The position numbers and the translations under genes were made by a program. Below the pieces are notes generated by a model. It searched no databases and was not told the origin of the DNA. It saw only the letters and a list, made by a program, of their open reading frames with translations. From positions 15,252,001 through 15,316,000 of the forward strand of contig NC_079878.1 in the NCBI RefSeq assembly GCF_029227915.1: a stretch of DNA of 64,000 nt, in the 5' to 3' direction. Source of the stretch: Hydractinia symbiolongicarpus (lineage: Eukaryota; Cnidaria; Hydrozoa; Anthoathecata; Hydractiniidae). This document shows, piece after piece, positions 1 through 55,022 of this stretch. Positions within the stretch are counted from its first letter, which is position 1. Every line of letters starts with the position of its first letter.

Positions 1-257
1 CGTTACAAGGCGTTACAAGAATCACTCTAGCCATTTCCAAAAATTTCACAGTCATTTTTTCATGGAAATAGGTTACAAAGCGTTACAACGTGTTACAAGG
101 CGTTACAATCAGCACGTCCATGCGTTACAAGGCGTTACAAGAATCACTCTAGCCATTTCCAAAAAATTCACAGTCATTTTTTCATGGAAATAGGTTACAA
201 AGCGTTACAACGTGTTACAAGGCGTTACAATCAGCATGTTCATGCGTTACAAGGCGT
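1..257 (+). repeat. End of 122-bp GTTACAA satellite, first copy
   Basis: About two monomers of the satellite seen complete at 7,371-8,537. Each carries clustered GTTACAA heptamers on the plus strand. The array is cut by the window start and runs directly into the small reading frame at 236. Confidence 0.9.
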
Positions 258-478
258 TTGTTTGCCTATCAGATGATGAAGTTTTCCTAACTATACCGAT
301 AGCGGCTTTGAAGGGAGAACCAAGTTTTTGCGAACCGCCTTCACACACGAGGGTACTTAATACACCAGATTATTGGCCAAATCGTAAGAGGAAAAAAAGC
401 CTTTATGTGTACGCCAGTTTTGACTGTAACAAAGTTAAAAGACTATTTGAATATTCTGGTTTTCAAAAATCTTTGTAA
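236..478 (+). CDS. Small conserved reading frame or terminal exon beside the recombinase gene (copy 1)
   Basis: This frame has no family I recognise. The first ATG lies in the last satellite monomer (236), so the N-terminus may be fortuitous. A pyrimidine-rich stretch ending in TATCAG at 272 looks like a splice acceptor, and the coding-like part is 273-478. It encodes about 68 residues with a basic patch (RKRKK) and a cysteine- and phenylalanine-containing tail. The frame is kept in both copies with one substitution (Ser to Gly). The stop is 38 bp from the convergent recombinase stop. It could be a separate small gene or an alternative last exon of the helicase gene of the neighbouring unit. 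I cannot identify a donor for it. Confidence 0.4.
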   Translation: MFMRYKAFVCLSDDEVFLTIPIAALKGEPSFCEPPSHTRVLNTPDYWPNRKRKKSLYVYASFDCNKVKRLFEYSGFQKSL

Positions 479-516
479 ATTTACAAAGTTATTTTTATTA
501 TAAATACAATTTAAAC

Positions 517-2163
517 TTATATAAATTGTTTTGTCTTCGCTCTAACCGCCAATGTACTAGCTTTACGGCTACAATGAAAGGAGTAGTTAGGATCTGCGAG
601 AATGGAAGTCCATTTTGCATTGCCATATTTTTGTAGCCCAGCTTGTAAAAACTTGTCCTCCATGGCACTAAAACTAACTTTTTTCTGTCTCGTTTGAACA
701 GGTGTTTCGTGTTCCAAAGTACTTCCAGACGTTTTCACATTTTTGGTGTTACTATTGATTTCGCTTACAGTTAAAGTACACGTTGTTTGATCTCGTAATT
801 TATCCATACATAACCTGGCTTTTGCAGCTATATTGCGCGATTCAGTCTTCTGGTAATGAACTTTAGCTACCTGCGACGTGTGTTTTTGATCTTGAGAAAG
901 AATTGCTTGTTCTTTTGTTTCTAAGTGTGCAACACTTTCGGTTTCGATGATTTGCCTATATCGTGTAGGATTTATATACTTACCAATTGCTTGATAAACA
1001 ATTCTACCGAATACGTCCGAAATACGCGTCAACTGCTTACCATTTCGACACACTAGTAGATAATCGTTGGTGGGGTTCAATCTTCGTCGTACATTGTCAA
1101 TGTATTCGTTTATTAGTGTGAGTACATCTATGGAAAAATAAAGAGAGTCAAATCCGTATTTCTCCGCAGTTTTAAAGACATTCTGATCTATAAAACCATC
1201 CTCTTTCACGCCTTTAATCATTGTTACTGTAAGAGTTTGATACGTCATGGGTCTTGAAGCCTTCACCATTAAAAATAATACAGCTACTATGAAGGAAGTC
1301 GAAAATGATAAATCGTGTGCTGCGACACATGCACTTGCGTTTTTAGCATTTAACACAATTTGTTTATATTTTTCACTATGGTATGGTATCACCTTTTGTA
1401 AATCATATAGTGTTGCCCAACAGTCTATACTGTTTAGATATTCAACACTTAAGATACACTTCCATTCAGCTTTCATTTTACGAAGGAGGAATTTCTTAAC
1501 ACGGTGCAAATAAATCTCTGCAGCAACAAATACCGACAAATTTTTTTCAGTCGTACCTGCGCTTCGTCTGTAATCAAGCATGTGCCCAATAGCATTCATG
1601 TAGCCAATTATTCCTGAGACGCCAACCTTCCATTGGTCTCTCAAAAAATCTACGAAATCAGAAAGCATATTAATAGAGCCAACACAGTAGTCGATAACAG
1701 GGAATGGTACTTCCCATACCGAAGGAGAATCCTCGCAGCAATATTTGGCATACTTTAAAACTTTACAAGTTATTTGATCGGCCTGAGAATGATCTTTACC
1801 ACCACCACCTGGACTTTTTAACCATGTCCTAAATGCAACTGCCAAATTACATGTTTTAGCAAAAGACGGCATTGAAAATGTGGAGGCGCGCTTTCTTTGG
1901 GGATCTTTTATGCGATTTCTCGTACTGAAGTGGGGAAGTACTTCGTCGATATTCGGTCTTTTATCGAAATAATAAAACCATCCATGACGGTTATAGACAT
2001 GTTTTCTACACCCTCTTTTACTTCCATACGACTCGCTGTCACAATCAGCCACAGGACAACAAAAGCGGTTATCTTTATCAGGCATTAACTTAAGCCTTTT
2101 CGATCTCATTGAGGCTCCCAATGCCTCTTTCCACGCAGGCTTTTGCAAGACTCGTTTTGTCAT
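517..2163 (-). CDS. Tyrosine recombinase with C2H2 finger and Myb/SANT-like domain (copy 1)
   Basis: I start at the ATG at 2,163; the frame is open to 2,193 but without an earlier ATG. Counting from that open frame (558 residues), a C2H2 finger lies at about 46-70 (C-x4-C...H-x4-H). A central helical region is followed by tyrosine-recombinase signatures: the first arginine in ASRPMTYQTL (R314), a second arginine region in NPTRYRQ (about 411-413), a histidine in QKHTSQVAKVHYQK (H438) and the candidate nucleophile Y447. A Myb/SANT-like domain closes the protein (about 505-550, KYGNAKWTSIL). This domain set suggests DNA cleavage and rejoining with two sequence-reading modules. Crypton and DIRS families also use this recombinase fold. 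The pairing with an SF3 helicase gene is what is unusual. Confidence 0.75.
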   Translation of the reverse strand: MTKRVLQKPAWKEALGASMRSKRLKLMPDKDNRFCCPVADCDSESYGSKRGCRKHVYNRHGWFYYFDKRPNIDEVLPHFSTRNRIKDPQRKRASTFSMPSFAKTCNLAVAFRTWLKSPGGGGKDHSQADQITCKVLKYAKYCCEDSPSVWEVPFPVIDYCVGSINMLSDFVDFLRDQWKVGVSGIIGYMNAIGHMLDYRRSAGTTEKNLSVFVAAEIYLHRVKKFLLRKMKAEWKCILSVEYLNSIDCWATLYDLQKVIPYHSEKYKQIVLNAKNASACVAAHDLSFSTSFIVAVLFLMVKASRPMTYQTLTVTMIKGVKEDGFIDQNVFKTAEKYGFDSLYFSIDVLTLINEYIDNVRRRLNPTNDYLLVCRNGKQLTRISDVFGRIVYQAIGKYINPTRYRQIIETESVAHLETKEQAILSQDQKHTSQVAKVHYQKTESRNIAAKARLCMDKLRDQTTCTLTVSEINSNTKNVKTSGSTLEHETPVQTRQKKVSFSAMEDKFLQAGLQKYGNAKWTSILADPNYSFHCSRKASTLAVRAKTKQFI

Positions 2164-2869
2164 TCCGATTTCTTTAAAGTTCTCTAGAAACAAAATTTAT
2201 AGAAAGTTTATAACAATATTAGTTTTTAACAAAGCATAGAAAGTAGGATAAAAAAAAGAATTCATTTGAATAAAAAAAGAATCCTATTAACTATAAATTT
2301 AAAGTTTGAACAACTTACCTTATACTTTACTTCGTATACAAAGTATTAGTTGAGAAACTTCTCATTAAAACAATTCCTTTTTATAATGAAGGACGCTCTC
2401 CATAGCAGAGTTAAGGTAGCAGCGAAAACGGAATTATTTCAAGTGGCACAATATAAATTAGACTGCAGAGTATTCATAATTAAATAACTATTCCTCAAGA
2501 TAATCATTTCGCATATATTATCGTTATGATATATAAAAGAATTCAACGGAACAAATAGAGTGGAACGATATATACCGTCACATAAATTCCATCAAATTCC
2601 CTATGGGAACGACACGTTCTTGTCTTGTGAGTAACAATAGAACAATACATTCCGCTTTTATAACAATGTTTTAATAAGTTGTTAAAGAACACCAAGTTCC
2701 TTAAAAATGGTTCTTTTTTAAAAAATTGGAACATGTAAAGTATTTAATGTGTTTAGGGTGTAAGATAATCGCACATAGAATCACGGACCATTATAATTTC
2801 ATACGCAATATAACCATAGGAGATTATTTTTGTTCCGCTACAGCATTCGTTTGTATTACTTAGCAGAAC
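2164..2869. promoter_or_regulatory. Divergent promoter region between recombinase and helicase genes, with a probable 5'UTR intron
   Basis: About 700 bp of AT-rich DNA separates the two start codons. On the minus strand, an acceptor-like TTTCTAG just upstream of the recombinase start and an AG|GTAAGT donor define a possible 135-nt intron (2,184-2,318). Its upstream exon has no long open frame, so it would be untranslated. The same sequence is present at 10,442-11,087. No TATA box can be assigned with confidence. Confidence 0.4.
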
Positions 2870-5800
2870 ATGGCTAACAGGCAACTGCGAAGTGAAGTTT
2901 TGAAACGCGCCCTGAAGGCATGCATCGTCCAACCGGTAATAAGAAAATATCAGGTAGTAGCCGTTCGTGCGATGTGGGGAAGTGATGTTGATGCCCGCGA
3001 GGTCATTTGGGGCAAGAGAATGCAGATGGAGAACATATTGCTTAGCAACGAACAAGTATCCTGTTTTTTTTCTTGTATTACCTATATGGCCAGACCTCGT
3101 AAGAGAAAGTCGATGAGGAATGAAGGGGAGGAAGAAGAAGGAGCCGACTCTAGCAGTGAAGGTGATAACAGAAACGGCGCAAATGCGCCTGAAACATTTC
3201 CTGGCATTTCTTTCTGGATCGCGTGCGACTTGCCAAACTGTACCTTAAGTCAATTTGAAACAAATTTGTCGAAGTCTTTTATGCAAGCCGGGTTGAATTT
3301 AACAACGTGCAATGCTATACAGACAAGAGGTAAATACTTGAACCTTTTAGTACTTGAAATACTGTCAATGTTTTTCGAATATTTTACGCCACATTTGATA
3401 TTTGTAGGCAAAACCAGTGCATTGCAAGCATTCTCAGGATCGTTATACCAAGTCTTGAAAGACCACAATAGGGAAGAAGCAAAACGGATAGTTGAGATAT
3501 CCCATCGCACAATGATTAGGAGTGCAGCTAGAGATGAAGGTGTTCAACTTGACCACGTTGCTGTAATGGAAAGCGAACAGTACTCGATGAAACCCTGTCA
3601 GTTAATTCTAACAAAAAATATTGATAAAGAGGTATATCAAGATGTAATTCGTGGTTTATCCGAAATCAGATTTACATCGCTTGATTTAAAAGTAATTGAT
3701 AAATCGGAAGGTAAGTTGCCACGAACAAATTTACTTACTTCTCCAATAATAAGACTAAGTTTTTTGTAGAAGTTAAAACATGTTTTTACATTGTTACACG
3801 CATAGGCACAGAAGTAACTATTCCCGTTAAGCCAACTAACAAACTTTGTCAATCCGTGGATATAGTTCGAAGGATGATGGAGAGGAATAGCTTTGGGCTG
3901 TGCAATGGAGGTGTATACAAAAAAATAGGAGAAAGCAGATACACATACGTTTACTGTTGTTCGGTGAAAAGCTATCTCTATCGCTCGTTGAAAAACAAAG
4001 CAATCGCCAACGAAATTACGCCAAATTTACGAGAGTTGGTATTTTTGCTGTCGGACGGCGAGTGCCAAATAATTGATCAAATAACTCTGGATTACAATTA
4101 CATTGAATGCTTGCCAAATGGAGTTTGTTATAACATCGCCAAAAAATGTTTCGATGTCAAGCCAAATTTAAAGGGATCTCCCCGAGCATTCGTACGGTAC
4201 TTTCATCGTGAGGGAAAAAATCCCGAACCAAAGCCATTTATAGAAGGTAATTGTTTTTACTTTTCTTTTAACGCGTTAAGAAAATGTGTTTTTTTTCTTT
4301 TAACGCGTTGTAACATATCAAGGTGGTAGTTGTAACGTGTTGTAACGTATTGTAACTTGTTGTAACGCATTGTCAGTGAAAAAAATGTTTTTTTTTATCT
4401 TTTAACGCGTTGTAACATATCAAGGTGGTAGTTGTAACGTGTTGTAACGTATTGTAACTTGTTGTAACGCATTGTCAGTGAAGAAAATGTTTTTTTTTAT
4501 CTTTTAACGCGTTGTAACATATCAAAGTGGTAGTTGTAACGTGTTGTAACGTATTGTAACTTGTTGTAACGCATTGTCAGTGAAGAAAATGTTTTTTTTT
4601 ATCTTTTAACGCGTTGTAACATATCAAAGTGGTAGTTGTAACGTGTTGTAACGTATTGTAACTTGTTGTAACGCATTGTCAGTGAAGAAAATGTTTTTTT
4701 TTATCTTTTAACGCGTTGTAACATATTAAGGTGGTAGTTGTAACGTGTTGTAACGTATTGTAACTTGTTGTAACGCATTGTCAGTGAAGAAAATGTTTTT
4801 TTTTATCTTTTAACGCGTTGTAACATATCAAAGTGGTAGTTGTAACGTGTTGTAACGTATTGTAACTTGTTGTAACGCATTGTCAGTGAAGAAAATGTTT
4901 TTTTTTATCTTTTAACGCGTTGTAACATATCAAGGTGGTAGTTGTAACGTGTTGTAACGTATTGTAACTTGTTGTAACGCATTGTCAGTAAAAAAAAAAC
5001 GCATTGTCAGTGAAGAAAATGTTTTTTTTTTATCTTTTAACGCGTTGTAACATATCAAGGTGGTAGTTGTAACGTGTTGTAACGTATTGTAACTTGTTGT
5101 AACGCATTGTCAGTAAAAAAAATGTTTTTTTTTATCCTTTAACGCGTTGTAACATATCAAGGTGGTAGTTGTAACGTGTTGTAACGTATTGTAACTTGTT
5201 GTAACGCATTGTCAGTGAAAAAAATGTTTTTTTTATCTTTTAACGCGTTGTAACATATCAAGGTGGTAGTTGTAACGTGTTGTAACGTATTGTAACTTGT
5301 TGTAACGCATTGTCAGTGAAGAAAATGTTTTTTTTTTATCTTTTAACGCGTTGTAACATATCAAGGTGGTAGTTGTAACGTGTTGTAACGTATTGTAACT
5401 TGTTGTAACGCATTGTCAGTGAAAAAAATGTTTTTTTTTATCTTTTAACGCGTTGTAACATATCAAGGTGGTAGTTGTAACGTGTTGTAACGTATTGTAA
5501 CTTGTTGTAACGCATTGTCAGTGAAGAAAATGTGTTTTTTTTCTTTTAACGCGTTGTAACATATCAAGGTGGTAGTTGTAACGTGTTGTAACGTATTGTA
5601 ACTTGTTGTAACGTAGTTCTAAAAAAGGTGCACTGAACTACATTTGTAGGTGTCGAAAATAGCTTCCCAGATAGAAATGTGCGGTTGCGTTTTTATCAAA
5701 AATGGTACCAAATTTTGCTCGCCGGTCAGTATCCCATGAAAGAAAAGAAATTGTTGCTGGTAGGTCCTCCTGATAGTGGAAAGACTAGTTGGTTTGCTCC

Positions 5801-7279
5801 ATTTCAAGGTAATTAAATAAAGTTCGTGAAAACTTCTGACTTTTAGACGGCACTTACTGACATACATTTGTCCTTTTAGGCATTATTCCAGAAATGTACA
5901 TTGCTGGCGTGGTTCGGGATGGTCGATTCTCAGGCCACCTGATAAATAGAAATACACAAGTCGTATTTATGGATGAATGGACTAGCGACAGTCTATGTTG
6001 TGAAGATGCAAAAAGAATATTGCAAGGTAAGTCGATGTCGATGCAGTACATGAACATTTACTTTGAATAAAATGTGGCAATGTGCAGATGGGATACCACT
6101 TTCTCTTATAGGCGGCTTGGTTATGATCCCGCAAAAACACAAAGAACCGGCCCGTTTTCAATACAATTCGGGTTTTTTTATAACAACTAATATAATGCCG
6201 GACTTCGGAAATGGTGTAGATGGTGAGGCTATCCTGCGTCGTCTTGAAGTTTTCGAAACTAAGACACTTCGAGTGAAGGACAATAGCATAACAAGTAAGT
6301 ATCTCATGAGAATAAATGATAACAATGGTGTAAATCAATATGCATAAAAATAAGTAATGACTTTTTTCCCGTAGAGTGGATGAGAATGCACTGCATGGAA
6401 ATATTTGTGTACGTTGCCAGCCAGTTGAAAGACATCTCGCTTTTCACCAGCGAAACCAATGTTGCGAAGAAAAATCAAGTAGGCGCTGTGTACAACGACG
6501 TTGATTGCGATCCGTCGGTCTTCTTGGACGAAGAGCAAACATTGGAAGCATCTAGCAGTTGTCTAAGCACACGAGTTCAGATTGAGAATGCAGTTCCGCA
6601 AGAGGCTATCGACTATGCCATTATTGCGGCCGACGATAGGGATGGCATTTTGTACCATGCGCTTAACTTTGATCATGAACTGTTTGACATAGAAAACAAG
6701 TTACACAGTGCTGAATATATGCGCAAAATGTACGAGATAGCCGCTGGGGCATGGGAGGAAATCTGCCCATTAATTAATAACGATGAGACCTTGGTAGCAT
6801 TCAAACGCCGTAAAAGGATCAACTGGCAGGGTAGTGACACGTTCTACGACACGTGGTTGCTTGCTACAAACTCCTGCCGCGATTTCTTCCCGACGAAAGA
6901 AATGAAGGAGCTCTACCCTGATTGGGCACAACTAATTGAGCAAGACGAAGACGAAGGAGAAGGTAGTAGCCACGACCGCGAAGAGAACGAGGAAGAAGAA
7001 GAGGAAACAAACGAAGAGGAGGAAGGTCATAGGGAAGAAGAAGAAACAGAAGAACATGAAATCAATGCTCAGTCGACAAAACCTGTTTCCACTGTTAAGC
7101 AAGAATATATGCCGTTTTGTCCAGCAAATAACAGTACTGCTTTTATAGACCTCGTGTCAGATGATGAAAGTGTTCCTGAAATTTCTTCAGTAAAATTAGA
7201 GCTATTTTCCGCAGATAATTCAACCACTTCTCTCGATTGTGGTGTTATCTGCATTAGTTCGGACGAAGAAGACAATTAA
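2870..7279 (+). CDS. Parvovirus-NS1-like SF3 helicase, seven exons
   Basis: Exons that keep one frame are 2,870-3,329, 3,408-3,710, 3,806-4,246, 5,650-5,808, 5,880-6,026, 6,112-6,294 and 6,375-7,279. All introns are GT-AG, and the total is 2,598 nt (865 codons). A start at the ATG at 3,086 (MARPRKRK) is also possible. The N-terminal part (acidic, with a basic nuclear-signal-like stretch) is unrecognised. The helicase core is clear: Walker A GPPDSGKTS in exon 4, Walker B TQVVFMDEW in exon 5, and B' (GGLVMIPQKH) plus motif C with sensor Asn (SGFFITTN) in exon 6. The last exon has long Glu-rich tracts and ends in a hydrophobic-acidic motif (VICISSDEED) resembling a SUMO-interaction motif. The likely role is ATP-driven unwinding during element replication. 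No frame is broken, which argues for recent function. Confidence 0.75.
4301..5621 (+). repeat. 102-bp satellite of TTGTAAC motifs inside helicase intron 3
   Basis: About 13 monomers with a 102-bp period fill most of the 1,403-nt intron (4,247-5,649). Each monomer carries about five TTGTAAC heptamers, the reverse complement of the GTTACAA heptamer in the flanking satellite, plus a GCATTGTCAGTGAA segment and a T-run. One monomer near 4,990 is rearranged. Splice sites on both sides are intact. Confidence 0.9.
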
Positions 7280-7370
7280 AAAAAAACTTTTTTGCGTTTT
7301 CCTTCCCTCATATCCCACCACATACTCCTTTTCTAAAGTGACATGCGAAAAGCGGTTTTCTCTACAGAAA

Positions 7371-8537
7371 TAGGTTACAAAGCGTTACAACGTGTTACAA
7401 GGCGTTACAATCAGCATGTCCATGCGTTACCAGGCGTTACAAGAATCACTCTAACCATTTCCAAAAATTTCACAGTCATTTTTTCATGGAAATAGGTTAC
7501 AAAGCGTTACAACGTGTTACAAGGCGTTACAATCAGCATGTCCATGCGTTACAAGGCGTTACAAGAATCACTCTAGCCATTTCCAAAAATTTCACAGTCA
7601 TTTTTTCATGGAAATAGGTTACAAAGCGTTACAACGTGTTACAAGGCGTTACAATCAGCACGTCCATGCGTTACAAGGCGTTACAAGAATCACTCTAGCC
7701 ATTTCCAAAAATTTCACAGTCATTTTTTCATGGAAATAGGTTACAAAGCGTTACAACGTGTTACAAGGCGTTACAATCAGCACGTCCATGCGTTACAAGG
7801 CGTTACAAGAATCACTCTAGCCATTTCCAAAAATTTTACAGTCATTTTTTCATGGAAATAGGTTGCAAAGCGTTACAACGTGTTACAAGGCGTTACAATC
7901 AGCACGTCCATGCGTTACAAGGCGTTACAAGAATCACTCTAGCCATTTCCAAAAATTTCACAGTCATTTTTTCATGGAAATAGGTTACAAAGCGTTACAA
8001 CGTGTTACAAGGCGTTACAATCAGCATGTTCATGCGTTACAAGGCGTTACAAGAATCACTCTAGCCATTTCCAAAAATTTCACAGTCATTTTTTCATGGA
8101 AATAGGTTACAAAGCGTTACAACGTGTTACAAGGCGTTACAATCAGCACGTCCATGCGTTACCAGGCGTTACAAGAATCACTCTAGCCATTTCCAAAAAT
8201 TTCACAGTCATTTTTTCATGGAAATAGGTTACAAAGCGTTACAACGTGTTACAAGGCGTTACAATCAGCACGTCCATGCGTTACAAGGCGTTACAAGAAT
8301 CACTCTAGCCATTTCCAAAAATTTCACAGTCATTTTTTCATGGAAATAGGTTACAAAGCGTTACAACGTGTTACAAGGCGTTACAATCAGCACGTCCATG
8401 CGTTACAAGGCGTTACAAGAATCACTCTAGCCATTTCCAAAAAATTCACAGTCATTTTTTCATGGAAATAGGTTACAAAGCGTTACAACGTGTTACAAGG
8501 CGTTACAATCAGCATGTTCATGCGTTATAAGGCGTTT
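7371..8537 (+). repeat. 122-bp GTTACAA satellite between helicase gene and the next unit
   Basis: Ten monomers start at 7,371, 7,493, 7,615, 7,737, 7,859, 7,981, 8,103, 8,225, 8,347 and 8,469, an exact 122-bp period. Each carries six GTTACAA heptamers in one orientation, then a conserved spacer (AATCACTCTAGCCATTTCC, a T-run and CATGGAAATAG). The array begins about 90 bp after the helicase stop codon. Confidence 0.95.
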
Positions 8538-8756
8538 GTTTGCCTATCAGATGATGAAGTTTTCCTAACTATACCGATAGCGGCTTTGAAGGGAGAACCA
8601 AGTTTTTGCGAACCGCCTTCACACACGAGGGTACTTAATACACCAGATTATTGGCCAAATCGTAAGAGGAAAAAAAGCCTTTATGTGTACGCCGGTTTTG
8701 ACTGTAACAAAGTTAAAAGACTATTTGAATATTCTGGTTTTCAAAAATCTTTGTAA
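8514..8756 (+). CDS. Small conserved reading frame or terminal exon (copy 2)
   Basis: This is the second copy of the frame at 236-478, with the same acceptor-like TATCAG (8,549-8,550) and the same stop. One residue differs (Gly for Ser). One satellite heptamer at its start is altered (GTTATAA). Function is unknown. Confidence 0.4.
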   Translation: MFMRYKAFVCLSDDEVFLTIPIAALKGEPSFCEPPSHTRVLNTPDYWPNRKRKKSLYVYAGFDCNKVKRLFEYSGFQKSL

Positions 8757-8794
8757 ATTTACAAAGTTATTTTTATTATAAATACAATTTAAAC

Positions 8795-10441
8795 TTATAT
8801 AAATTGTTTTGTCTTCGCTCTAACCGCCAATGTACTAGCTTTACGGCTACAATGAAAGGAGTAGTTAGGATCTGCGAGAATGGAAGTCCATTTTGCATTG
8901 CCATATTTTTGTAGCCCAGCTTGTAAAAACTTGTCCTCCATGGCACTAAAACTAACTTTTTTCTGTCTCGTTTGAACAGGTGTTTCGTGTTCCAAAGTAC
9001 TTCCAGACGTTTTCACATTTTTGGTGTTACTATTGATTTCGCTTACAGTTAAAGTACACGTTGTTTGATCTCGTAATTTATCCATACATAACCTGGCTTT
9101 TGCAGCTATATTGCGCGATTCAGTCTTCTGGTAATGAACTTTAGCTACCTGCGACGTGTGTTTTTGATCTTGAGAAAGAATTGCTTGTTCTTTTGTTTCT
9201 AAGTGTGCAACACTTTCGGTTTCGATGATTTGCCTATATCGTGTAGGATTTATATACTTACCAATTGCTTGATAAACAATTCTACCGAATACGTCCGAAA
9301 TACGCGTCAACTGCTTACCATTTCGACACACTAGTAGATAATCGTTGGTGGGGTTCAATCTTCGTCGTACATTGTCAATGTATTCGTTTATTAGTGTGAG
9401 TACATCTATGGAAAAATAAAGAGAGTCAAATCCGTATTTCTCCGCAGTTTTAAAGACATTCTGATCTATAAAACCATCCTCTTTCACGCCTTTAATCATT
9501 GTTACTGTAAGAGTTTGATACGTCATGGGTCTTGAAGCCTTCACCATTAAAAATAATACAGCTACTATGAAGGAAGTCGAAAATGATAAATCGTGTGCTG
9601 CGACACATGCACTTGCGTTTTTAGCATTTAACACAATTTGTTTATATTTTTCACTATGGTATGGTATCACCTTTTGTAAATCATATAGTGTTGCCCAACA
9701 GTCTATACTGTTTAGATATTCAACACTTAAGATACACTTCCATTCAGCTTTCATTTTACGAAGGAGGAATTTCTTAACACGGTGCAAATAAATCTCTGCA
9801 GCAACAAATACCGACAAATTTTTTTCAGTCGTACCTGCGCTTCGTCTGTAATCAAGCATGTGCCCAATAGCATTCATGTAGCCAATTATTCCTGAGAAGC
9901 CAACCTTCCATTGGTCTCTCAAAAAATCTACGAAATCAGAAAGCATATTAATAGAGCCAACACAGTAGTCGATAACAGGGAATGGTACTTCCCATACCGA
10001 AGGAGAATCCTCGCAGCAATATTTGGCATACTTTAAAACTTTACAAGTTATTTGATCGGCCTGAGAATGATCTTTACCACCACCACCTGGACTTTTTAAC
10101 CATGTCCTAAATGCAACTGCCAAATTACATGTTTTAGCAAAAGACGGCATTGAAAATGTGGAGGCGCGCTTTCTTTGGGGATCTTTTATGCGATTTCTCG
10201 TACTGAAGTGGGGAAGTACTTCGTCGATATTCGGTCTTTTATCGAAATAATAAAACCATCCATGACGGTTATAGACATGTTTTCTACACCCTCTTTTACT
10301 TCCATACGACTCGCTGTCACAATCAGCCACAGGACAACAAAAGCGGTTATCTTTATCAGGCATTAACTTAAGCCTTTTCGATCTCATTGAGGCTCCCAAT
10401 GCCTCTTTCCACGCAGGCTTTTGCAAGACTCGTTTTGTCAT
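8795..10441 (-). CDS. Tyrosine recombinase with C2H2 finger and Myb/SANT-like domain (copy 2)
   Basis: The frame is intact and identical to the copy at 517-2,163 except for one Val to Phe change near residue 192, between the finger and the catalytic domain. All catalytic-type residues (R314, R411/R413, H438, Y447) and the Myb-like tail are kept. Its divergent promoter (10,442-11,087) is present, but the helicase gene expected to its right is missing, so this copy would depend on a helicase supplied elsewhere. Confidence 0.75.
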   Translation of the reverse strand: MTKRVLQKPAWKEALGASMRSKRLKLMPDKDNRFCCPVADCDSESYGSKRGCRKHVYNRHGWFYYFDKRPNIDEVLPHFSTRNRIKDPQRKRASTFSMPSFAKTCNLAVAFRTWLKSPGGGGKDHSQADQITCKVLKYAKYCCEDSPSVWEVPFPVIDYCVGSINMLSDFVDFLRDQWKVGFSGIIGYMNAIGHMLDYRRSAGTTEKNLSVFVAAEIYLHRVKKFLLRKMKAEWKCILSVEYLNSIDCWATLYDLQKVIPYHSEKYKQIVLNAKNASACVAAHDLSFSTSFIVAVLFLMVKASRPMTYQTLTVTMIKGVKEDGFIDQNVFKTAEKYGFDSLYFSIDVLTLINEYIDNVRRRLNPTNDYLLVCRNGKQLTRISDVFGRIVYQAIGKYINPTRYRQIIETESVAHLETKEQAILSQDQKHTSQVAKVHYQKTESRNIAAKARLCMDKLRDQTTCTLTVSEINSNTKNVKTSGSTLEHETPVQTRQKKVSFSAMEDKFLQAGLQKYGNAKWTSILADPNYSFHCSRKASTLAVRAKTKQFI

Positions 10442-11084
10442 TCCGATTTCTTTAAAGTTCTCTAGAAACAAAATTTATAGAAAGTTTATAACAATATTAG
10501 TTTTTAACAAAGCATAGAAAGTAGGATAAAAAAAAGAATTCATTTGAATAAAAAAAGAATCCTATTAACTATAAATTTAAAGTTTGAACAACTTACCTTA
10601 TACTTTACTTCGTATACAAAGTATTAGTTGAGAAACTTCTCATTAAAACAATTCCTTTTTATAATGAAGGACGCTCTCCATAGCAGAGTTAAGGTAGCAG
10701 CGAAAACGGAATTATTTCAAGTGGCACAATATAAATTAGACTGCAGAGTATTCATAATTAAATAACTATTCCTCAAGATAATCATTTCGCATATATTATC
10801 GTTATGATATATAAAAGAATTCAACGGAACAAATAGAGTGGAACGATATATACCGTCACATAAATTCCATCAAATTCCCTATGGGAACGACACGTTCTTG
10901 TCTTGTGAGTAACAATAGAACAATACATTCCGCTTTTATAACAATGTTTTAATAAGTTGTTAAAGAACACCAAGTTCCTTAAAAATGGTTCTTTTTTAAA
11001 AAATTGGAACATGTAAAGTATTTAATGTGTTTAGGGTGTAAGATAATCGCACATAGAATCACGGACCATTATAATTTCATACGC

Positions 11085-11308
<224 letters not shown>

Positions 11309-14836: not shown

Positions 14837-15583
14837 CTAGTCGATAAGGCCTGTGGAGAAATCCACTTAGGCAGGAGGGACAATGTAAAAATTGGATATT
14901 TTAGACCTTTTGCTGATGTCAGCAGTGCATATGAAAAAACAAATTGACGAAATTCATTTTATCCGTTGTCTCTATTGTGTAGAGCTCGACACGCTCATGA
15001 AGAGAATGTATGTGATCATGTGATTTTGATGAACGGTTAATGATATATAAGGGTTTAAAAAATATGCTGACGTCAGCAAAGACCCGCGAAAACAAACAAA
15101 ATTAATTTTTAGAAATTTGTTTACCTGTTGGCTTCAACGTATAGGTCTTTAAACGCTGATCAAGAAAATGTATAGGATCATGTACTTTTGACAAACGGTT
15201 ACGGAAATATGGGGGTTTAATTGATTTTTGATGACGTTATCAACCCGTCCATTCCGAAACGGATTCAGGGACCCAGGTTTGGGAAAATTACCCAAATTGG
15301 TCCTATCTGGTCCCTATTTACCCACGCGGGGAAAAATCATTGACACCACCTCGTTTCCAAGTTATTTGGCCTCAAATATTTAAGTGCACTGTAATGGCTT
15401 CATTAATTTAATATAGGATATTGACGTTAGTAGTAGTGTTATTGACGTCGCGCCGTAATGTCATAAAATTTAACATCCGAGACATACTTTTTTCGGCGAC
15501 ATCAGAGAAAATTTCGGCGACATCAAAGGAAAATGACGATATCCACTATGACCGTCACATACACTTCGTATTATTATAAGAGA
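14837..15583 (-). mobile_element. Non-autonomous Helitron, copy A
   Basis: Read on the minus strand it begins TCTCTTATAATAATACG and ends with a GTGGA/TCCAC-type hairpin (here slightly mismatched) followed by GACTAG. It is flanked by A and T. TC at the 5' end, a 3' hairpin and CTRR at the 3' end are the hallmarks of Helitrons. It is longer than the 569-589-bp relatives at 54-56 kb and contains extra internal sequence. No coding capacity. Confidence 0.75.
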
Positions 15584-25479: not shown

Positions 25480-25800
25480 TATTGAAATTACAGACACTCT
25501 AGTCAGATATTTACTGGAACATTACGGAACATTCCAGAACATTCTTGAACATTCATGTAGTATGGACATTGCATCATGTATATATGTACTTGAACTCTCT
25601 AGAACATACCTTGGAACTTTCTTGATGTTTCTTACTAGACGCCATCTTTGTTTCTGGAACATTCTAGACGTTTTTTCTTGTATACTAGTATTTTCTAGCA
25701 AGTTCCATGTAAAGACTATATATAAGCTGACTGTAAACATTTATGTATGTACATTGTGAAGTAAATATATCTTCAGAACCATAACAAATATTATTCAACA
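25480..25800 (+). repeat. Copia 5' LTR
   Basis: A 321-bp direct repeat starting at the base after target duplication ACATT. It contains phased GAA/TTC heat-shock-type arrays (25,517-25,554 and 25,652-25,664) and a TATATATAAG box at about 25,718. No AATAAA was seen in it. Confidence 0.95.
25517..25554 (+). promoter_or_regulatory. Heat-shock element array in the 5' LTR
   Basis: Starting at 25,517, GAA and TTC triplets alternate every 5 bp for eight units (GAA, TTA, GAA, TTC, GAA, TTC, GAA, TTC); only one is imperfect. Inverted nGAAn repeats at 5-bp spacing are the binding site of heat-shock factor trimers, and three units usually suffice. A second cluster (TTC-GAA-TTC at 25,652-25,664) lies about 55 bp before the TATA-like box. 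Both recur in the 3' LTR at +4,391. Heat inducibility is inferred. Confidence 0.8.
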
Positions 25801-25814
25801 GGTTATGGGCCCAG
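25801..25814 (+). other. Primer-binding site matching the anticodon arm of initiator tRNA-Met
   Basis: GGTTATGGGCCCAG directly follows the LTR. It is complementary to the anticodon stem-loop of initiator tRNA-Met, not to its 3' end. Drosophila copia is known to prime from a cleaved initiator tRNA half, so the same half-tRNA mechanism is expected here. Confidence 0.8.
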
Positions 25815-25981
25815 AGTATTGCCCAGTATAACTGAAGATAGTGAGAAGAAACTTGTAAACAAAGTACGTGCACAACTTGACGCCATCTTGGAAATTTGTA
25901 GTTCACGGAATTTTGGTGATTGTTATCACGGAATCAAAACATTGATATTCCGGTATTTAGTTGAAAGTATCCGGAGGAATA

Positions 25982-28900
25982 ATGGCTGCGGAAGCAACGA
26001 AGATTCTTTTGAAACCGCTAAATGGATCAAATTATGCGACATGGAAGTTGCAATGTAAGATGGCATTGGTACGAGAAGGTTTGTGGAAAATTGTTAATGA
26101 AACTGAAGGTGCTCCTGCTGATGGCGAAGCAGCAGCGGTGAAATATGCATTGAGAAGAGACAAGGCATTGGCTACTATCGTTTTATCGATTGAACCGTCT
26201 CTTCTATATCTACTGGGTCCGGATCCAGAAGATCCCGCAGAAGTATGGAAAAGGTTAGCCAATCAATTTCAAAAAAAATCTTGGGCCAACAAATTGGCAT
26301 TACGTCGAAAACTTTATGAGTTAAAGTTAAAGGAAGGACAATCGGTACAGACTCACATCAAAACAATGACGGAGATTTTTGAAGAGTTAGCGATTGTTGG
26401 TGATCCTTTGGATGACGAAAATAAGGTGGTTCATTTGTTGGCAAGTTTGCCGCGTTCGTACGACATGTTGGTCACGGCGCTCGAAGCAAGTTCGGAGGTA
26501 CCAAAAATTGACGTTGTTACAGAGCGACTGCTTCACGAAGAAAGCAAACAGAAAGACATGGTAGAAACAGAGCCAGGAATAAAGGCGATGACGTTAAAGC
26601 ATCATCAGCGTAACCAGAAAGGTCCAAAGTGTTATCGGTGTGGTAATTACGGACATATTAAACGAAACTGTGATCTCAACAAGGCGGGAAATTTTTCGAG
26701 ATCGGATGGAAAGTTCAAGAAGAAACCCATGAACCAAAAAGCTTGTACCGCCGAAAAGGAGGAGTCCGACGAAGAAATCGAACTCGGATTTGTTGTCGAA
26801 CATTCTTTAGTAGCATCCGAAAAGTTAAGCGATTGGATAGTGGACTCTGGAGCCACGTGTCATATGTGCAATGACGAGAGCTTATTTATTGACATTGTTG
26901 AACTCGAGGAACCACAGAAGATTACTGTTGGGGACGGATACTCACTGGAAGCTATTGGTAAAGGGACAGTGGAATTATTCGTGAACATCCCGGATGTAAA
27001 AGTGAAACAATGCCGATTGTATGAAACTTTATACGTACCACAACTGTCTTACAATCTTTTGAGTGTCTCAAAGGGAACAAAGTCCGGTAAGAGGTTTGAG
27101 TTTGGTCAGTCGGAATGCCGTATATTGGATGGCAACAAAGTAGTCGCTACTGCTACAAAGTCTGGAAACCTGTATCATCTCAACTGTAGTCGACAGGGAG
27201 AAGCGGAAAGCGAGTTTGCAATGTGTGGAATTAACGACACAAAAGAATCAATTTGGCACCGACGTTACGGTCACCTTGGGGTTAAAAGTCTGGAAATGCT
27301 GGCAAAAGATAATTTGGTTGATGGATTTGAATACGATTCATTAAAGAATGCAAAGTTTTGTGAATCATGTGTTGATGGAAAGCAGCACCGGACACCTTTT
27401 CCAAAGAAAGGAGGAGTGCGGTCCAATGAATTACTTGGATTAGTGCACAGTGGCGTGTGTGGAAAGATTGAAGAGAAGTCACTTAGCGGAGCTGAGTATT
27501 TTATCACCTTTATCGACGATAAGTCACGACATGTGTCGGTGTATATGCTGAAAAACAAAAGCGACGCATTCCAAAGTTTTGTGGAATGGAAAGCAATGGT
27601 CGAAAAGTCAAGCGGTTCGAGAATTAAAGTATTTCGAACGGACAACGGAGGAGAATACACTTCAAATGAATTTGAGAACTATCTCAAAAGAGAAGGTATT
27701 CGACATGAAACCACAGTTCCAAAGAATCCAGAACAGAACGGTGTGGCTGAAAGAATGAACAGGACACTTGTGGAAATGGTGCGAGCCATGTTAGCGGATT
27801 CAAAGTTACCCAAGCGTTTTTGGGCAGAAGCATTATCAACAGCAAGTTACTTACGAAATCGTAGTCCTACAAGTGCTGTTAAAGGTATGACACCATATGA
27901 AGTTTGGACTGGACACAAACCAAATGTCAGCGATCTTTGTATATTTGGATGCAACGCTTACGCACTCATTCCAAAGGACGAGAAAGCAAAAGTGGATTCA
28001 AAGACGAAACGATGCATTTTCCTGGGATATGGTACGACAACCAAAGGCTTTCGGTTGTACGATGAAGTGAAGAAAAGAGTTTTCTTCAGCAGAGATGTTG
28101 TCTTCAACGAAACCAAATCACGAACTAAGGAGAAGGATGACAAAGAAGCTCCAAAAGAAGTTGTCAAGCAACATGAAGTGGAATGGGAATTTGAAGATAA
28201 TGACGTTGACAAAAATGACAACGGTGAACCTTTACAAACCGATAGGCAGAGACGAGAACGAAAAGCACCAGATCGTTACGGTGATTGGGTATATGTTGCA
28301 GAAGAAGTACCAGATCCAAAGTCAATCAAAGAAGCACTTCAAAGTGATGACAAAGAAAATTGGATCGACGCAATGAAAAGGGAAATCAAATCACTATACA
28401 AGAACGATGTATGGGATGTCGTTGAACTGCCGGATGGACGTAAAGCTGTTGGAAGCAAATGGGTGTTCAAACGAAAGTGTGATGCAGATGGAAACGTAGA
28501 GCGGCACAAGGCAAGATTAGTAGCGCAAGGATTCACACAGAAAAGTGGAATTGACTATGATGAAACATTTTGTCCCGTAGTAAGATTCGAATCAATAAGG
28601 ACAATGATTGCATTGGCAGCGAAATATAATCTTCAACTACATCAATTGGATATAACAACCGCATTCTTGAATGGCGAATTGAAAGAAGACATCTTCATGA
28701 AACAACCTGAGGGTTTCGAGATTAAAGGGAAGGAGAATATGGTCTGCAAGCTGAAGAGAAGTATATATGGTCTAAAGCAATCGTCGCGATGCTGGAATGA
28801 AGCTTTGGATAAACATCTCAAGAAATGTGGATTTACCCCTTCGACGAATGATCCTTGCATTTACACGATGACTTCAGGAGGAGAGATGTTTATATTGGCT

Positions 28901-29863
28901 GTATACGTTGATGATATCCTATTAGCAGGGAAATCAAGTACGCGAATCCAACAAATCATTCAAGAAATTGGTGTAAAATTTGACGTAAAAGACATGGGGA
29001 AGTTACATCATTTCCTTGGCGTTAAAGTCGTTCATCTAGAACCAGGGAAGATATGGATTGGTCAACCAACCTACATCAAAGAAGTGCTAACGAAGTTTGA
29101 CATGCAAAATTCGAAATCTGTCGCAACTCCTACTGAAGCCGGAGCAAGATTGATGAAACCAACAGACGATGATATTCTGTTTGACCAAGACATATATCAA
29201 TCAGCAGTTGGATGTCTCCTTTATCTGTCAACGAAAACAAGACCAAATATTGCATATGCTGTTGGAAACGTTGCAAGATACACTTCAAAACCTACGACAC
29301 ATCATTGGTCTGCAGTCAAACGTATTATGAGATATTTGAATGGCACAGTCAACTATGGTTTATTATATGGTGATAAAAGTGGTTTAACCGGATATTCAGA
29401 TGCGAATTGGGCAGGCGATCTTGACGATCGAAAATCAACATCTGGTTATATTTTCAAGATGAGTGGAGCAGCTATTAGCTGGTTGAGTAAGAAGCAAACA
29501 TGTGTAGCCTTATCCACAGCAGAAGCAGAGTACATTGCATTGTCAAGTGCAGCACAGGAATCTATTTGGTTGAGACGAATTCTTAATGACATGAACGAGA
29601 AATCAGACGAGCCAACTTTGATCTACGAAGACAATCAGTCAACAATTTGTATGGCGAGAAATCCAAAGTTTCATGGACGTACAAAACATATTGACATTAA
29701 GCATCACTACATACTAGAACAGATTACGAATAAGAAGATGACGTTGGTGTACTGTCCGAGCGAGGACATGGTTGCGGACGTATTGACAAAAGGATTGGGT
29801 CGTGTTCAATTTAATGAACTACGCGAAAGGAGTGGTATTTACGAACTATCTGACAGCGAGTGA
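25982..29863 (+). CDS. Copia Gag-Pol polyprotein
   Basis: The first ATG in frame is at 25,982 (MAAEATKILLKPLNG); the frame is also open for a few codons upstream. There are 1,293 residues, normal for the family. Order of domains (approximate residues): Gag with a KPLNGSNYATWK start; CCHC knuckle CYRCGNYGHIKRNC (about 220); aspartic protease WIVDSGATCHMC (about 285); integrase HHCC (WHRRYGHLG...CESC) and catalytic core (RTDNGGEYTS, PEQNGVAERMNRT); reverse transcriptase with YVDDILLAG; RNase H ending in STAEAEYIALSSAAQE and DIKHHYI. Every catalytic motif is present. Integrase before reverse transcriptase places it in Ty1/copia. The stop overlaps the polypurine tract. Confidence 0.97.
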   Translation: MAAEATKILLKPLNGSNYATWKLQCKMALVREGLWKIVNETEGAPADGEAAAVKYALRRDKALATIVLSIEPSLLYLLGPDPEDPAEVWKRLANQFQKKSWANKLALRRKLYELKLKEGQSVQTHIKTMTEIFEELAIVGDPLDDENKVVHLLASLPRSYDMLVTALEASSEVPKIDVVTERLLHEESKQKDMVETEPGIKAMTLKHHQRNQKGPKCYRCGNYGHIKRNCDLNKAGNFSRSDGKFKKKPMNQKACTAEKEESDEEIELGFVVEHSLVASEKLSDWIVDSGATCHMCNDESLFIDIVELEEPQKITVGDGYSLEAIGKGTVELFVNIPDVKVKQCRLYETLYVPQLSYNLLSVSKGTKSGKRFEFGQSECRILDGNKVVATATKSGNLYHLNCSRQGEAESEFAMCGINDTKESIWHRRYGHLGVKSLEMLAKDNLVDGFEYDSLKNAKFCESCVDGKQHRTPFPKKGGVRSNELLGLVHSGVCGKIEEKSLSGAEYFITFIDDKSRHVSVYMLKNKSDAFQSFVEWKAMVEKSSGSRIKVFRTDNGGEYTSNEFENYLKREGIRHETTVPKNPEQNGVAERMNRTLVEMVRAMLADSKLPKRFWAEALSTASYLRNRSPTSAVKGMTPYEVWTGHKPNVSDLCIFGCNAYALIPKDEKAKVDSKTKRCIFLGYGTTTKGFRLYDEVKKRVFFSRDVVFNETKSRTKEKDDKEAPKEVVKQHEVEWEFEDNDVDKNDNGEPLQTDRQRRERKAPDRYGDWVYVAEEVPDPKSIKEALQSDDKENWIDAMKREIKSLYKNDVWDVVELPDGRKAVGSKWVFKRKCDADGNVERHKARLVAQGFTQKSGIDYDETFCPVVRFESIRTMIALAAKYNLQLHQLDITTAFLNGELKEDIFMKQPEGFEIKGKENMVCKLKRSIYGLKQSSRCWNEALDKHLKKCGFTPSTNDPCIYTMTSGGEMFILAVYVDDILLAGKSSTRIQQIIQEIGVKFDVKDMGKLHHFLGVKVVHLEPGKIWIGQPTYIKEVLTKFDMQNSKSVATPTEAGARLMKPTDDDILFDQDIYQSAVGCLLYLSTKTRPNIAYAVGNVARYTSKPTTHHWSAVKRIMRYLNGTVNYGLLYGDKSGLTGYSDANWAGDLDDRKSTSGYIFKMSGAAISWLSKKQTCVALSTAEAEYIALSSAAQESIWLRRILNDMNEKSDEPTLIYEDNQSTICMARNPKFHGRTKHIDIKHHYILEQITNKKMTLVYCPSEDMVADVLTKGLGRVQFNELRERSGIYELSDSE

Positions 29864-29870
29864 GGAGGAG

Positions 29871-30191
29871 TATTGAAATTACAGACACTCTAGTCAGATA
29901 TTTACTGGAACATTACGGAACATTCCAGAACATTCTTGAACATTCATGTAGTATGGACATTGCATCATGTATATATGTACTTGAACTCTCTAGAACATAC
30001 CTTGGAACTTTCTTGATGTTTCTTACTAGACGCCATCTTTGTTTCTGGAACATTCTAGACGTTTTTTCTTGTATACTAGTATTTTCTAGCAAGTTCCATG
30101 TAAAGACTATATATAAGCTGACTGTAAACATTTATGTATGTACATTGTGAAGTAAATATATCTTCAGAACCATAACAAATATTATTCAACA
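29871..30191 (+). repeat. Copia 3' LTR
   Basis: Appears identical to the 5' LTR over 321 bp, including the heat-shock arrays (29,908-29,945 and 30,043-30,055) and TATA-like box (about 30,109). The copy could also drive readthrough into downstream sequence under stress. Confidence 0.95.
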
Positions 30192-39769: not shown

Positions 39770-42239
39770 ATGTGGCCACAAAACGATATCAATCAAGGTC
39801 CAGTAGACCATGAAATGTGTGTTCATGTGTTTGGAGCAGCAGCATCCCCTAGTTGCAGTAATTATGCCCTTAAACGAACTGCAACCGACTTTATAGATCT
39901 ATTTGGAATTGCAGCAGCTGAAATACTAAGAAAGAACTTCTATGTAGATGATTTATTAAAGTCTGTGAGGGAAAGAAAAGTGGCGATTGAATTAATAAAG
40001 CAGGTAGTGAATATGTGTCAAGCAAGAGGATTTAACCTTGTGAAATTTGTATGTAATGATTTCAACGTTTTAGAAAGTCTTCCAGACGACAAGAAGAAGA
40101 TTTCATCTTCACCACTCGATATTAACACTTGTAGTGACCCAACTATGGAAAGAGCTCTTTTCGTGAAAAGCCCATGACACGCAGAGGGATGTTATCGATG
40201 CTAAGTTCAATATATGATCCATTAGAATTTATTGGACCGTTCATTCTTCGAGGTAGAAGAATAATCCAACATCTGTGTTGTGACAACTTTGGTTGGGATG
40301 ACAGAGTACCAGTAGACGTTGTGGAGAATTGGCATAAGTGGATAAGTAATGTTAGAAAGTTAGAAAATGTCAAATAAATCGATGTTTTCATCCAAAAGAT
40401 TTTGGAGAAATAGTTGAGTCTGAACTACATCATCTTTCTGATGCATATAGTAGTGGTTATGGTCAGGTGTCTTATTTGAGGATAAAAAATAAAAGAGGGA
40501 GGATACATTGTGCCTTTGTATCTGGAAAATCAAGAGTGGCCCCAAAGAAGTTTATATCAATACCACGTTTGGAGTTAACCGCTGCTGTTTTGTCGATCAA
40601 GATGTCCAAGGTCATAAGGAAAGAATTAACATATCACATAAATAATGAATTCTTCTGGACGGATAGTCAAGTCGTTCTGAGTTACATTTGTAATTCAGAA
40701 AAGAGATTTAAAATTTTTGTGGCAAATCGGATTCAAATCATTAAGGATAACTCAGATGTTAATCAATGGCATTACATAAACACTAAGGACAATCCAGCTG
40801 ATTATGCTTCTCGAGGAATAAAGGCTGATCAAGACAAGGCAGAAATATGGTTTAATGGTCCAAGCTTTCTTTGGCAGCCGAGACATGTTTGGAAACAACC
40901 TGATGTTGCTGCAGAAATATCGGAAGATGATCCGGAAGTTAAGAAGTCTGTGCATGTTAACATGATTACTATCCAGAATGACGTGTTGTCAAGAATTGAA
41001 AACCGCTTATCAAGCTGGGAGAAAGCAAAAAGAGTATGTTTTTAAATACATCTTTATATTACGATATCGTATTGAGCAAAGAAGACAAGAACAATCATTG
41101 TTAAAAGTTGATCATCCACATCTTAAACATCTTAGTGTCGACATGATGGAACATGCAGCATCTAAAATTATCAGTCTACTGCAAGAAAAATATTTTGCAT
41201 CAGAAATCGATTCTCTGGGAAGGAAATCAAATTTAATCTCATCCAGCACCATATATCAATTAAACCCATTTCTTGATTCTCATGGAATATTACGTGTTGG
41301 TGGAAGGCTAAGAAACGCAAATTTTGACGAAAACGTAATCCATCCTATCCTGCTGCCAAAAAATTCGAAGATAACAGAATTAATTGTTCGTTGGTGTCAT
41401 GAAAAGGTAGCTCACAGTGGAAGAGGAATGACCTTAAATGAACTTTGTGGAAATGGAAGAGGTAAGGTTGGGAATCAGTTAATGGGCAATTTACCAAAAG
41501 AGAGATTACAATCAGAGCCGCCATTTACGTATTGTGGAGTTGATATGTTTGGTCCCTTTGTAATCAAGGTTAGGAGGAATGAATTAAAAAGGTATGGAGC
41601 AATGTTTACATGTCTTAGTAGTCGTGCTATCCATATTGAAATAACATCATCAATGGACACAGATTCATTTATACTCGCATTAAGACGTGTTATTGCCAGA
41701 AGAGGAAACATTAGAACCATGATTTCTGATAATGGATCAAATTTTGTTGGAGCTCAGTCAGAACTACGCAAAGCATTTGAAGAAATGGATCAAAAGCATG
41801 TCCAAGAATTTTTATCTAACCAAGGTAGAGAGTGGATAATTTGGAAGAAAATTCTCCAGCAGCTAGCCATATGGAGGGAGTATGGGAACGACAAATACGT
41901 TCAGTAAGATCCATATTGACCACACTTTTAAAGACTCACGCAGGTTCTCTCAATGAAGAATCACTAATTACCTTGATGACTTAGGCTGAAGCAATTGTTA
42001 ATTCCAGACCTTTGACTGTTGAAACACTAAATGATGTCAACAGTATGCAACCATTATCCCCAAGTCAACTTCCTACAATGAAGAGCAAGGTGATAATGCC
42101 ACCCCCTGGATCATTCTCACAACCTGATCTATATAGTCCCAAACAGTGGAGAAGAGTCCAATACTTGGCGAACGAACAGAAAAAGGTGATATTGGAGCGT
42201 CCAATTCACAATCTCGTTTTGTTGGTTGAAATTGCGTAA
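39770..42239 (+). pseudogene. BEL/Pao retrotransposon pol fragment
   Basis: The first part is the reverse transcriptase palm (VHVFGAAASPSCSNYALKRTA, then NFYVDDLLKSV) to 40,177. Then follow LSSIYDPLEFIGPFILRGRR, an RNase H region (RLELTAAVLS, FWTDSQVVLSYI) and an integrase with FTYCGVDMFGPF and MISDNGSNFVGAQSELRKAF. Frames change near 40,175, 40,375, 41,040 and 41,810, and no LTR, Gag or protease was found. The order protease-RT-RNaseH-integrase and the CVDMFGPF signature place it in BEL/Pao. The 5' break is sharp at about 39,770, directly after the capsid relic. Confidence 0.75.
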
Positions 42240-53987: not shown

Positions 53988-54171
53988 TGTTTACGGAATC
54001 TTTTAGAAGGGCTACGTCCAGTCAATTTCAGAACGACAGATATTTACGTTGGGTTTACTTTATTGTTTTCATTTTTAATTTTAAACTTGTTAAACTTTGA
54101 TTGCATTGCAGATAACAGGCATGGCGCTTTTGTTCTCTGAGGATAGTCTCGCACTATATGCTTATTATCTA

Positions 54172-54760: not shown

Positions 54761-55022
54761 TGCTGATGGCGGAAATCTTCAAACCATCGGGCTTCTTGTT
54801 TTAGAATCATCGATGCGATCGATTCGACCACCTTCGTTTGAGTGGAAACCCGCCTTTAGGCTACTTCAAAATTTTAGGTGTGGTCACACTAATTTAATGA
54901 AAGCAACGAAATCTCTATAATAAATAAATAATAAATATAATAATATTTGCACTGCTGACGTCAGCAAAAAACTAAAACAACCTATTTTTGCATTGTTCTT
55001 CTGCCTAAGTAAGATTACTCCA

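Follow-up and report, generated by a model that had tools for sequence, protein, structure and literature searches.

The stretch of DNA analysed here (the window; 64,000 nt of the colonial hydroid Hydractinia symbiolongicarpus, C4:15252001-15316000) carries the final 1.3 units of an array of four tandem units (C4:15230614-15263084) formed by a mobile element. Its unit of ~8.3 kb holds a tyrosine recombinase (YR) gene, a seven-exon superfamily 3 (SF3) helicase gene and two facing arrays of the motif TTGTAAC. We consider it probable, at roughly 80%, that the element is a DNA transposon which relies on a site-specific tyrosine recombinase and behaves in the manner of an integrative plasmid. The paired genes, the exact ends that abut TAA repeats and the tandem junctions that restore a single 7-bp core lead to its reading as a YR transposon directed at TAA microsatellites and equipped with its own helicase. 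The element is real and well bounded, it has spread recently, and by its gene pair and its target it lies outside the described YR transposon families with which it was compared.

The pairing of the two genes was examined across the genome. The helicase Walker A pattern occurs at 22 loci, and at all 22 a YR gene lies 2.3-3.4 kb away in convergent orientation, the distance differing by whole 122-bp units in several copies. A protein search with the YR gave 56 matches, 20 of which extend across residues 1-549 (16 of these are free of stops). Merging by hand reduced the 56 YR rows to 38 entries (C8 appearing twice) and 47 rows for helicase exon 7 to 32; at 31 of these 32 a YR is found within 4 kb, 30 times in convergent orientation. 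The only helicase entry without a YR is at C7:16.66 Mb (62%), and the 6 of 38 YR entries for which helicase exon 7 is missing from the surrounding 4 kb are all fragments. Two decayed copies at 57-71% identity also carry both genes (C8:15.98 Mb, where they are not convergent, and C1:24.14 Mb), and the pairing is therefore old. Searches with the ends of the element returned 26 strong right and 26 strong left ends (three weak right-end matches and one partial left-end match were left uncounted). Both ends are present at 18 sites, 15 with a single unit and 3 with tandem units (four on C4, two on C9 and two on C10); the 23 units at these sites are 6.8-11.6 kb long. Another three right ends and three left ends are unpaired, and at L047 (C7) the left end was not seen. 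A YR match lies beside each of the 26 strong right ends, and no non-autonomous copies were seen in this by-eye comparison. The initial annotation, made from the letters of the window, had regarded the two genes as parts of one recurring mobile entity; the unit does recur, in tandem in the window and dispersed across the genome, and within this genome the adjacency of the genes (22/22 and 31/32 loci) together with the exact common ends bears that proposal out. Diverged right-end matches (69%) were also noted ~12 kb from YR fragments (68%) at C1:8946821-8958799 and C1:11116819-11128795; these are perhaps traces of a second, larger family of such elements.

Junctions were read at every outer end, 21 on the right and 21 on the left; the other 5 of 26 on each side are internal to tandem arrays. 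For the right ends, L011 is interrupted by an insertion and L068 was used instead (C2:18274947-18278000; an insertion of ~2 kb lies close to the right end of this copy and the end junction is intact). Four of the five internal junctions read CATACGC-TATATAA-CCATAGG, the core in the window being AATATAA, and the three arrays end at the common core. At the outer right ends the sequence continues with exact TATATAA in 19 of 21 cases. Within 40 bases of all 21 outer left ends and of 19 of the 21 outer right ends there is a pure TAA run that is 9 bases long or longer (background, 404 of 52500 window positions, 0.77%), and runs of at least 30 bases lie within 60 bases of 18/21 left and 14/21 right ends (background, 225 of 52500 window positions). 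One more right end, L089, adjoins a mixed TAA/TAACAA repeat, so that TAA-type repeats stand at 20 of the 21 outer right ends. Exact (TAA)10 windows number 13344 on the forward and 12633 on the reverse strand in 480.9 Mb, and such runs thus occupy at most 0.16% of the genome. Mapping of the ends, for which a comparison of empty and filled sites had been proposed, yielded 21 left and 21 right outer ends that are exact; the empty sites, which carry a TAA run, are paralogous and correspond to three of the insertions.

The copies are young. The 17 YR copies of equal length (3 of 20 copies, of other lengths, were excluded) differ on average at 3.6 of 1647 bases, and identical copies are found on different chromosomes (C14, C3 and C10 share one sequence, C1 and C2 another). 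Among the 17, the copy at C4:9.20 Mb lacks the ATG and two contain a stop. Relative to the column majority there are 22 substitution events, 13 nonsynonymous (stops included) and 9 synonymous; the resulting pN/pS (ratio of nonsynonymous to synonymous changes, each per site) of 0.38 is a weak sign of constraint on the YR.

The YR consists of an N-terminal C2H2 finger, a catalytic domain and a C-terminal TRF-like Myb domain. The window sequence was aligned with 39 sequences chosen from the 120 relatives listed, out of 854 database relatives at E <= 0.001. In the numbering of this alignment (549 residues), R305, K332, R402, H429 and Y438 are identical in 40/40 sequences and R404 in 39/40; the motif residues R314, R411/413, H438 and Y447 reported earlier for a 558-aa frame are R305, R402/R404, H429 and Y438 here. 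In the zinc finger C37 and C42 are invariant, H56 is present in 39/40 sequences and H61 in 38/40. Pfam Myb is matched in the C-terminal region of 37/40 members (E <= 1), and the profile of this region has TRF1 as its best solved match (E 4.6e-6). An AlphaFold model (mean predicted local distance difference test, pLDDT, 86) gave the recombinase XerA as the best Foldseek match (E 4.6e-3, probability 1.00), followed by the Myb domains of TRF1/TRF2. The YR and part of the helicase match unnamed RefSeq proteins of H. symbiolongicarpus (P0001, P0123). In prokaryotic genomes, where the YR was the sole query, relatives were sought and none was confirmed.

The helicase gene (2870-7279, plus strand) has seven exons and six GT-AG introns, each of phase 1, and none of the exons contains a stop; as the YR frame is likewise open, both genes are unbroken, as had been thought. 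It has 20 database relatives at E <= 0.001, among them proteins of Hydractinia, several of Clytia and a single one of the coral Oculina patagonica, and a profile search returned 10 proteins, 2 of them new. A wide family is suggested by the 854 YR relatives and by the occurrence of related helicases in Clytia and a coral. Walker A, Walker B and motif C, which had been recognized in the initial annotation, are seen and conserved: the K/T of Walker A, the DE of Walker B, the K of B' and the IT of motif C with the following R are identical in 16/16 homologues, and the motif C position is N in 11/16 and Q in 5/16. With motifs A, B, B' and C all present, the protein belongs to SF3. The window's own helicase exons match no Pfam family above the cut-off; among single homologues (E <= 1), DUF5906 is matched by 5/16 (best 1.2e-6), papillomavirus PPV_E1_C by 5/16 (best 2.4e-5) and Parvo_NS1 by 2/16 (best 0.024). 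The modelled structure of P0124, a homologue from Clytia (mean pLDDT 73), resembles poxvirus D5/E5 and the SaPI5 primase-helicase and, lower down, AAV Rep68, and the matches in a viral structure library comprise parvoviral NS1 beside D5 helicases and phage primases. No HUH/HUQ nuclease motif is visible in exons 1-4 of the window gene; a HUQ triplet occurs in 3/16 homologues, in one alignment column shortly ahead of the helicase domain. The label 'NS1-like' used before is therefore too specific, since DUF5906 and PPV_E1_C outscore Parvo_NS1, the best structures are of the D5/E5 type and the HUH motif is lacking. Kinship with parvovirus NS1 was rejected on the Parvo_NS1 match of only 0.024 in 2/16 homologues, though NS1 models occur among the viral structure matches. 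We conclude that the helicase is an SF3 protein of the initiator type without a visible nicking domain, and E1- or T-antigen-like unwinding would be favoured over rolling-circle nicking because no HUH motif is visible.

The two TTGTAAC arrays are iteron-like and face each other. In intron 3 the motif occurs 65 times on the plus strand (4308-5612), and between the convergent 3' ends of the genes 55 times on the minus strand (7374-8508), giving 120 per window unit; the window from 11085 to 64000 contains it 15 times in total over both strands. The intron array is kept (at least 5 TTGTAAC) in 16/16 copies whose fetched stretch reached it, the stretches of three other copies having ended ahead of it. 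These arrays bear on the best of the alternatives, in which a Crypton-type YR transposon has captured the helicase as a passenger or regulator that does not replicate DNA, and the arrays regulate transcription. Replication of the element is only inferred, the functions of the Clytia and coral homologues are putative only, and the Myb domain of the YR could itself bind the arrays. However, the ATPase motif residues are kept in 16/16 homologues, the helicase stands beside the YR at 31/32 loci (the two copies diverged to 57-71% included), and helically phased arrays are typical of initiator binding; we therefore regard a passenger helicase as unlikely.

The element was then set against known systems. 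It is like a Crypton, described as a DNA transposon that has a YR, lacks terminal inverted repeats, bears short direct repeats at its termini as supposed recombination substrate and is proposed to form a circle (Kojima and Jurka 2011, PMC3212892). In the unit the YR is the only recombinase or transposase, no inverted pair of at least 60 bp is found, and the termini have short cores (TATATAA, TAATAA or TCATAA at left ends; TATATAA at 19/21 right ends). Cryptons are, by contrast, described without a replication gene, and for animal CryptonA the YR is given as the sole gene and as lacking a C-terminal domain; the word 'helicase' is absent from the main text of that paper (PMC3212892). The unit adds a C-terminal Myb domain, the seven-exon SF3 helicase, a pair of TTGTAAC arrays and a target that is always a simple repeat, and is set apart by description. 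Endogenous nimaviruses are, by description, the nearest published parallel found for the targeting: their C2H2-bearing YRs enter telomere-type repeats (TAACC)n, a related YR family enters 28S rDNA, and nimaviral YRs are not closely related to those of Crypton and DIRS (PMC10871703). Nimaviruses are, however, large, with many genes and other targets, and 'SF3' and 'Myb' do not occur in the main text of the paper (PMC10871703); in the unit, YR and helicase are the only frames of at least 150 aa, with no nimaviral core genes among them.

Other comparisons concern replicating elements and viruses. The scans of the unit's open reading frames (ORFs) and exons found no reverse transcriptase of the DIRS/Ngaro kind and, together with a check for the HUH motif, no RepHel with a HUH Rep and an SF1 helicase as in Helitrons. 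Parvoviral HUH nuclease, capsid gene and hairpin ends are all lacking in the unit. The yeast 2-micron circle has a YR and repeat arrays and is not known to integrate at a target or to carry an SF3 helicase, and bacterial integrative plasmids and integrative and conjugative elements combine an integrase with a replication initiator of other types in one unit. Papillomavirus E1, polyomavirus large T and cressvirus RepE1 are alike in being SF3 initiators on circular DNA, and homologues of the present helicase match PPV_E1_C; to our knowledge none of these viruses has a YR. They differ from the unit, which contains no capsid gene and whose helicase exons match no Pfam family above the cut-off. In polinton-like viruses and virophages, YR and SF3 helicase can share one element, and these carry capsid genes. 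Elements of this group are listed at 14-40 kb (PMC12220804), whereas the unit is of ~8.3 kb and shows no capsid gene, packaging ATPase or terminal inverted repeats: the Pfam scans found no capsid family, there is no inverted pair of at least 60 bp, and the ORF listing contains no other frame of at least 150 aa. The possibility of an endogenous DNA virus remnant deprived of its capsid genes (polinton-like, cress-like with an E1-type Rep, parvovirus-like or nimavirus-like) was nevertheless weighed, since many viruses carry SF3 helicases of this kind. The nearest helicase parallel found is the E1-type Rep of cressviruses, reported to have left traces in anemone genomes (PMC11071296), and YR-bearing endogenous nimaviruses enter simple repeats (PMC10871703). 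Against this, common ends close the unit at 18 sites around two frames, and IMG/VR viral contigs yielded confirmed relatives of neither the YR (0/4 pattern stretches) nor the helicase (0/41). A viral remnant is thus improbable, and clearly more so than a passenger helicase. No capsid-less eukaryotic element with a YR and an SF3 helicase was met among the literature matches listed (Repbase, Dfam and subscription papers lying outside the search), which upholds, with that scope, the earlier statement that no described eukaryotic transposon class has this pair.

A further question is whether the TAA runs are the target or have grown by slippage from the element's TATATAA core after insertion; run length does vary, and TAA already forms the last three bases of the core. 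Three insertions (C1, C3 and C9) have right flanks that are 95-99% alike and belong to a large repeat family (677 candidates at first look, 40 scored; L009, L014, L018 and L069-L088). In all 19 other copies read, a (TAA)n run of 9-264 bases lies at the same position, and no element right end occurs within 700 bases. At these three sites the run most likely pre-dates the element because 19/19 element-free copies carry it, and runs of tens to hundreds of bases stand beside nearly identical young copies, so that growth by slippage is hardly tenable. This abundant (TAA)n-bordered family may be a landing pad for the element. Least of all can the genes be two unrelated neighbours or host genes in satellite-like amplification, even though tandem repeats are abundant in Hydractinia (15.7% of the assembly as defined by TRF, according to PMC11067881), because there are 15 single-copy sites on many chromosomes with two common ends, the three arrays end at the common core and both genes are paired throughout. 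A host-gene or nested-insertion reading was likewise refuted by the pairing at 22/22 and 31/32 loci. The main text of the Hydractinia genome paper does not contain the words Crypton or recombinase (PMC11067881).

How would such a transposon work? The YR probably recombines the ends of a unit at the core TATATAA, giving a circle with one core, and then probably recombines this core with a TAATAA of a microsatellite, so that insertion would leave no long target duplication; a circular intermediate is strongly implied. E1 and large T antigen unwind DNA and recruit host polymerases. The helicase, acting at TTGTAAC directly or via a partner, probably unwinds the circle and may likewise recruit such polymerases to it, and replication of the circle would raise copy number ahead of reinsertion; tandem arrays could arise by integration of multimers or by insertion beside a resident copy. 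In the circle the genes diverge from ~700 bp of shared upstream sequence, and in the inserted form they converge, so their description as divergent in the initial annotation holds for circular or tandem forms and fails for the inserted form. Both genes placed at 517-7279 are real, and that span is a circular permutation of the integrated unit (2814-11084). The helicase ATG follows the core at a distance of 56 bp, and ~640 bp of the upstream sequence common to both genes stay with the YR. Since the core splits the region in this way, one may speculate that a lone inserted copy separates the helicase from its promoter, which would be regained only in the circle or the tandem form.

Several observations weigh against the reading as a TAA-targeting YR transposon that replicates as a circle. 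The right end L017 (C6) has the core followed by unique sequence, with no TAA repeat; left cores vary (TATATAA in 7/21, TAATAA in 13, TCATAA in 1), which a simple crossover explains incompletely; and the empty sites compared are paralogous. The circle itself was not seen, and a tandem array has an identical junction. A protein that binds TTGTAAC is putative only. Foldseek support for the YR is modest (zero matches at E <= 0.001) and its core falls below the cut-off of every Pfam YR family, for which reason the assignment stands on motif, fold and behaviour together. An inverted repeat centred on the core has 10/13 positions paired around a 9-bp spacer, a score that 62 of 60114 background midpoints also reach; it is weak when 31 positions are scanned freely, 129 of 1899 random places then scoring as well, and it is for this reason only suggestive of a recombinase site.

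The features of the element in the window are collected in Table 1. Beyond the YR and helicase frames the unit has no further ORF of at least 150 aa in the ORF listing. An 88-aa open frame without Pfam match is present at 212-478 and again at 8490-8756, in the interval that separates the 122-bp array from the YR gene's 3' end, and could be an unrecognized small gene or a terminal exon of the element.

Table 1. Coordinates of the element's parts in the window
Feature	Position	Strand	Remarks
Right part of preceding unit	1..2806	.	period 8278 bp, 3 mismatches across first 2806 bp; similarity ends at 2807/11085; array continues leftward to C4:15230614
YR gene, preceding unit; C2H2 - YR catalytic domain - Myb	517..2163	-	ATG frame, 548 aa
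Imperfect inverted repeat around core, candidate recombinase site	2793..2827	.	arms 2793-2805 and 2815-2827
7-bp core, internal junction	2807..2813	.	AATATAA in window; TATATAA in other four internal junctions
Last complete unit, 8271 bp	2814..11084	.	ends from outer junctions across the genome (21 left, 21 right)
SF3 helicase exon 1	2870..3329	+	
SF3 helicase exon 2	3408..3710	+	
SF3 helicase exon 3	3806..4246	+	
102-bp tandem array in intron 3	4278..5613	+	65 x TTGTAAC; 39/64 steps exactly 10 bp
SF3 helicase exon 4, Walker A	5650..5808	+	
SF3 helicase exon 5, Walker B	5880..6026	+	
SF3 helicase exon 6, B' and motif C	6088..6294	+	
SF3 helicase exon 7 and stop	6375..7279	+	
122-bp tandem array between convergent 3' ends	7367..8536	-	55 x TTGTAAC; 36/54 steps exactly 10 bp
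YR gene, last unit	8795..10441	-	second copy of 548-aa frame
Outer right junction	11085..11307	.	core TATATAA (11085-11091), then (TAA)n microsatellite, the target

In the rest of the window (11085-64000) no more copies of the element were found by blastn and no YR by tblastn, and the helicase gave two chance-level tblastn matches only (E 0.58 and 0.71). Other mobile elements are present there: a copia-type long terminal repeat retrotransposon at 25480-30170 (one open frame of 1300 aa with RVT_2, 1.6e-81, gag and integrase, and identical 300-bp end segments), a frame matching the rve integrase core at 40978-41907 (E 5.9e-8), a DDE transposon frame with DDE_Tnp_4 and HTH_Tnp_4 at 45738-46940, and a DDE_1 match split across two frames, the second weak, at 49136-50384. 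A large near-perfect inverted repeat lies at 54157-55622 (arms of 444 and 170 bp at 98%), and a diverged copy of part of its arm at 15098-15407.

There is a fair chance that the element will prove a class of its own. We put forward tentatively, and at somewhat less than even odds, the fuller picture of an animal transposon that forms a class not described before, namely an integrative plasmid of the nucleus that replicates itself and has no capsid: a Myb-tagged YR would direct insertion into TAA repeats and the element's own SF3 initiator would amplify the excised circle from the two facing TTGTAAC arrays, the helicase being on only when its promoter is rejoined in the circle or the tandem form. 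Animal YR DNA transposons are described with a recombinase alone, and the combination of a YR with a viral-type replicative helicase makes the question of how they gain copies testable in a laboratory animal. The element forms a link between transposons on one side and small DNA viruses and integrative plasmids on the other, and is a further DNA transposon, one addressed to a trinucleotide repeat; with its exact ends and near-identical copies, it is also a practical candidate tool for site-directed insertion.

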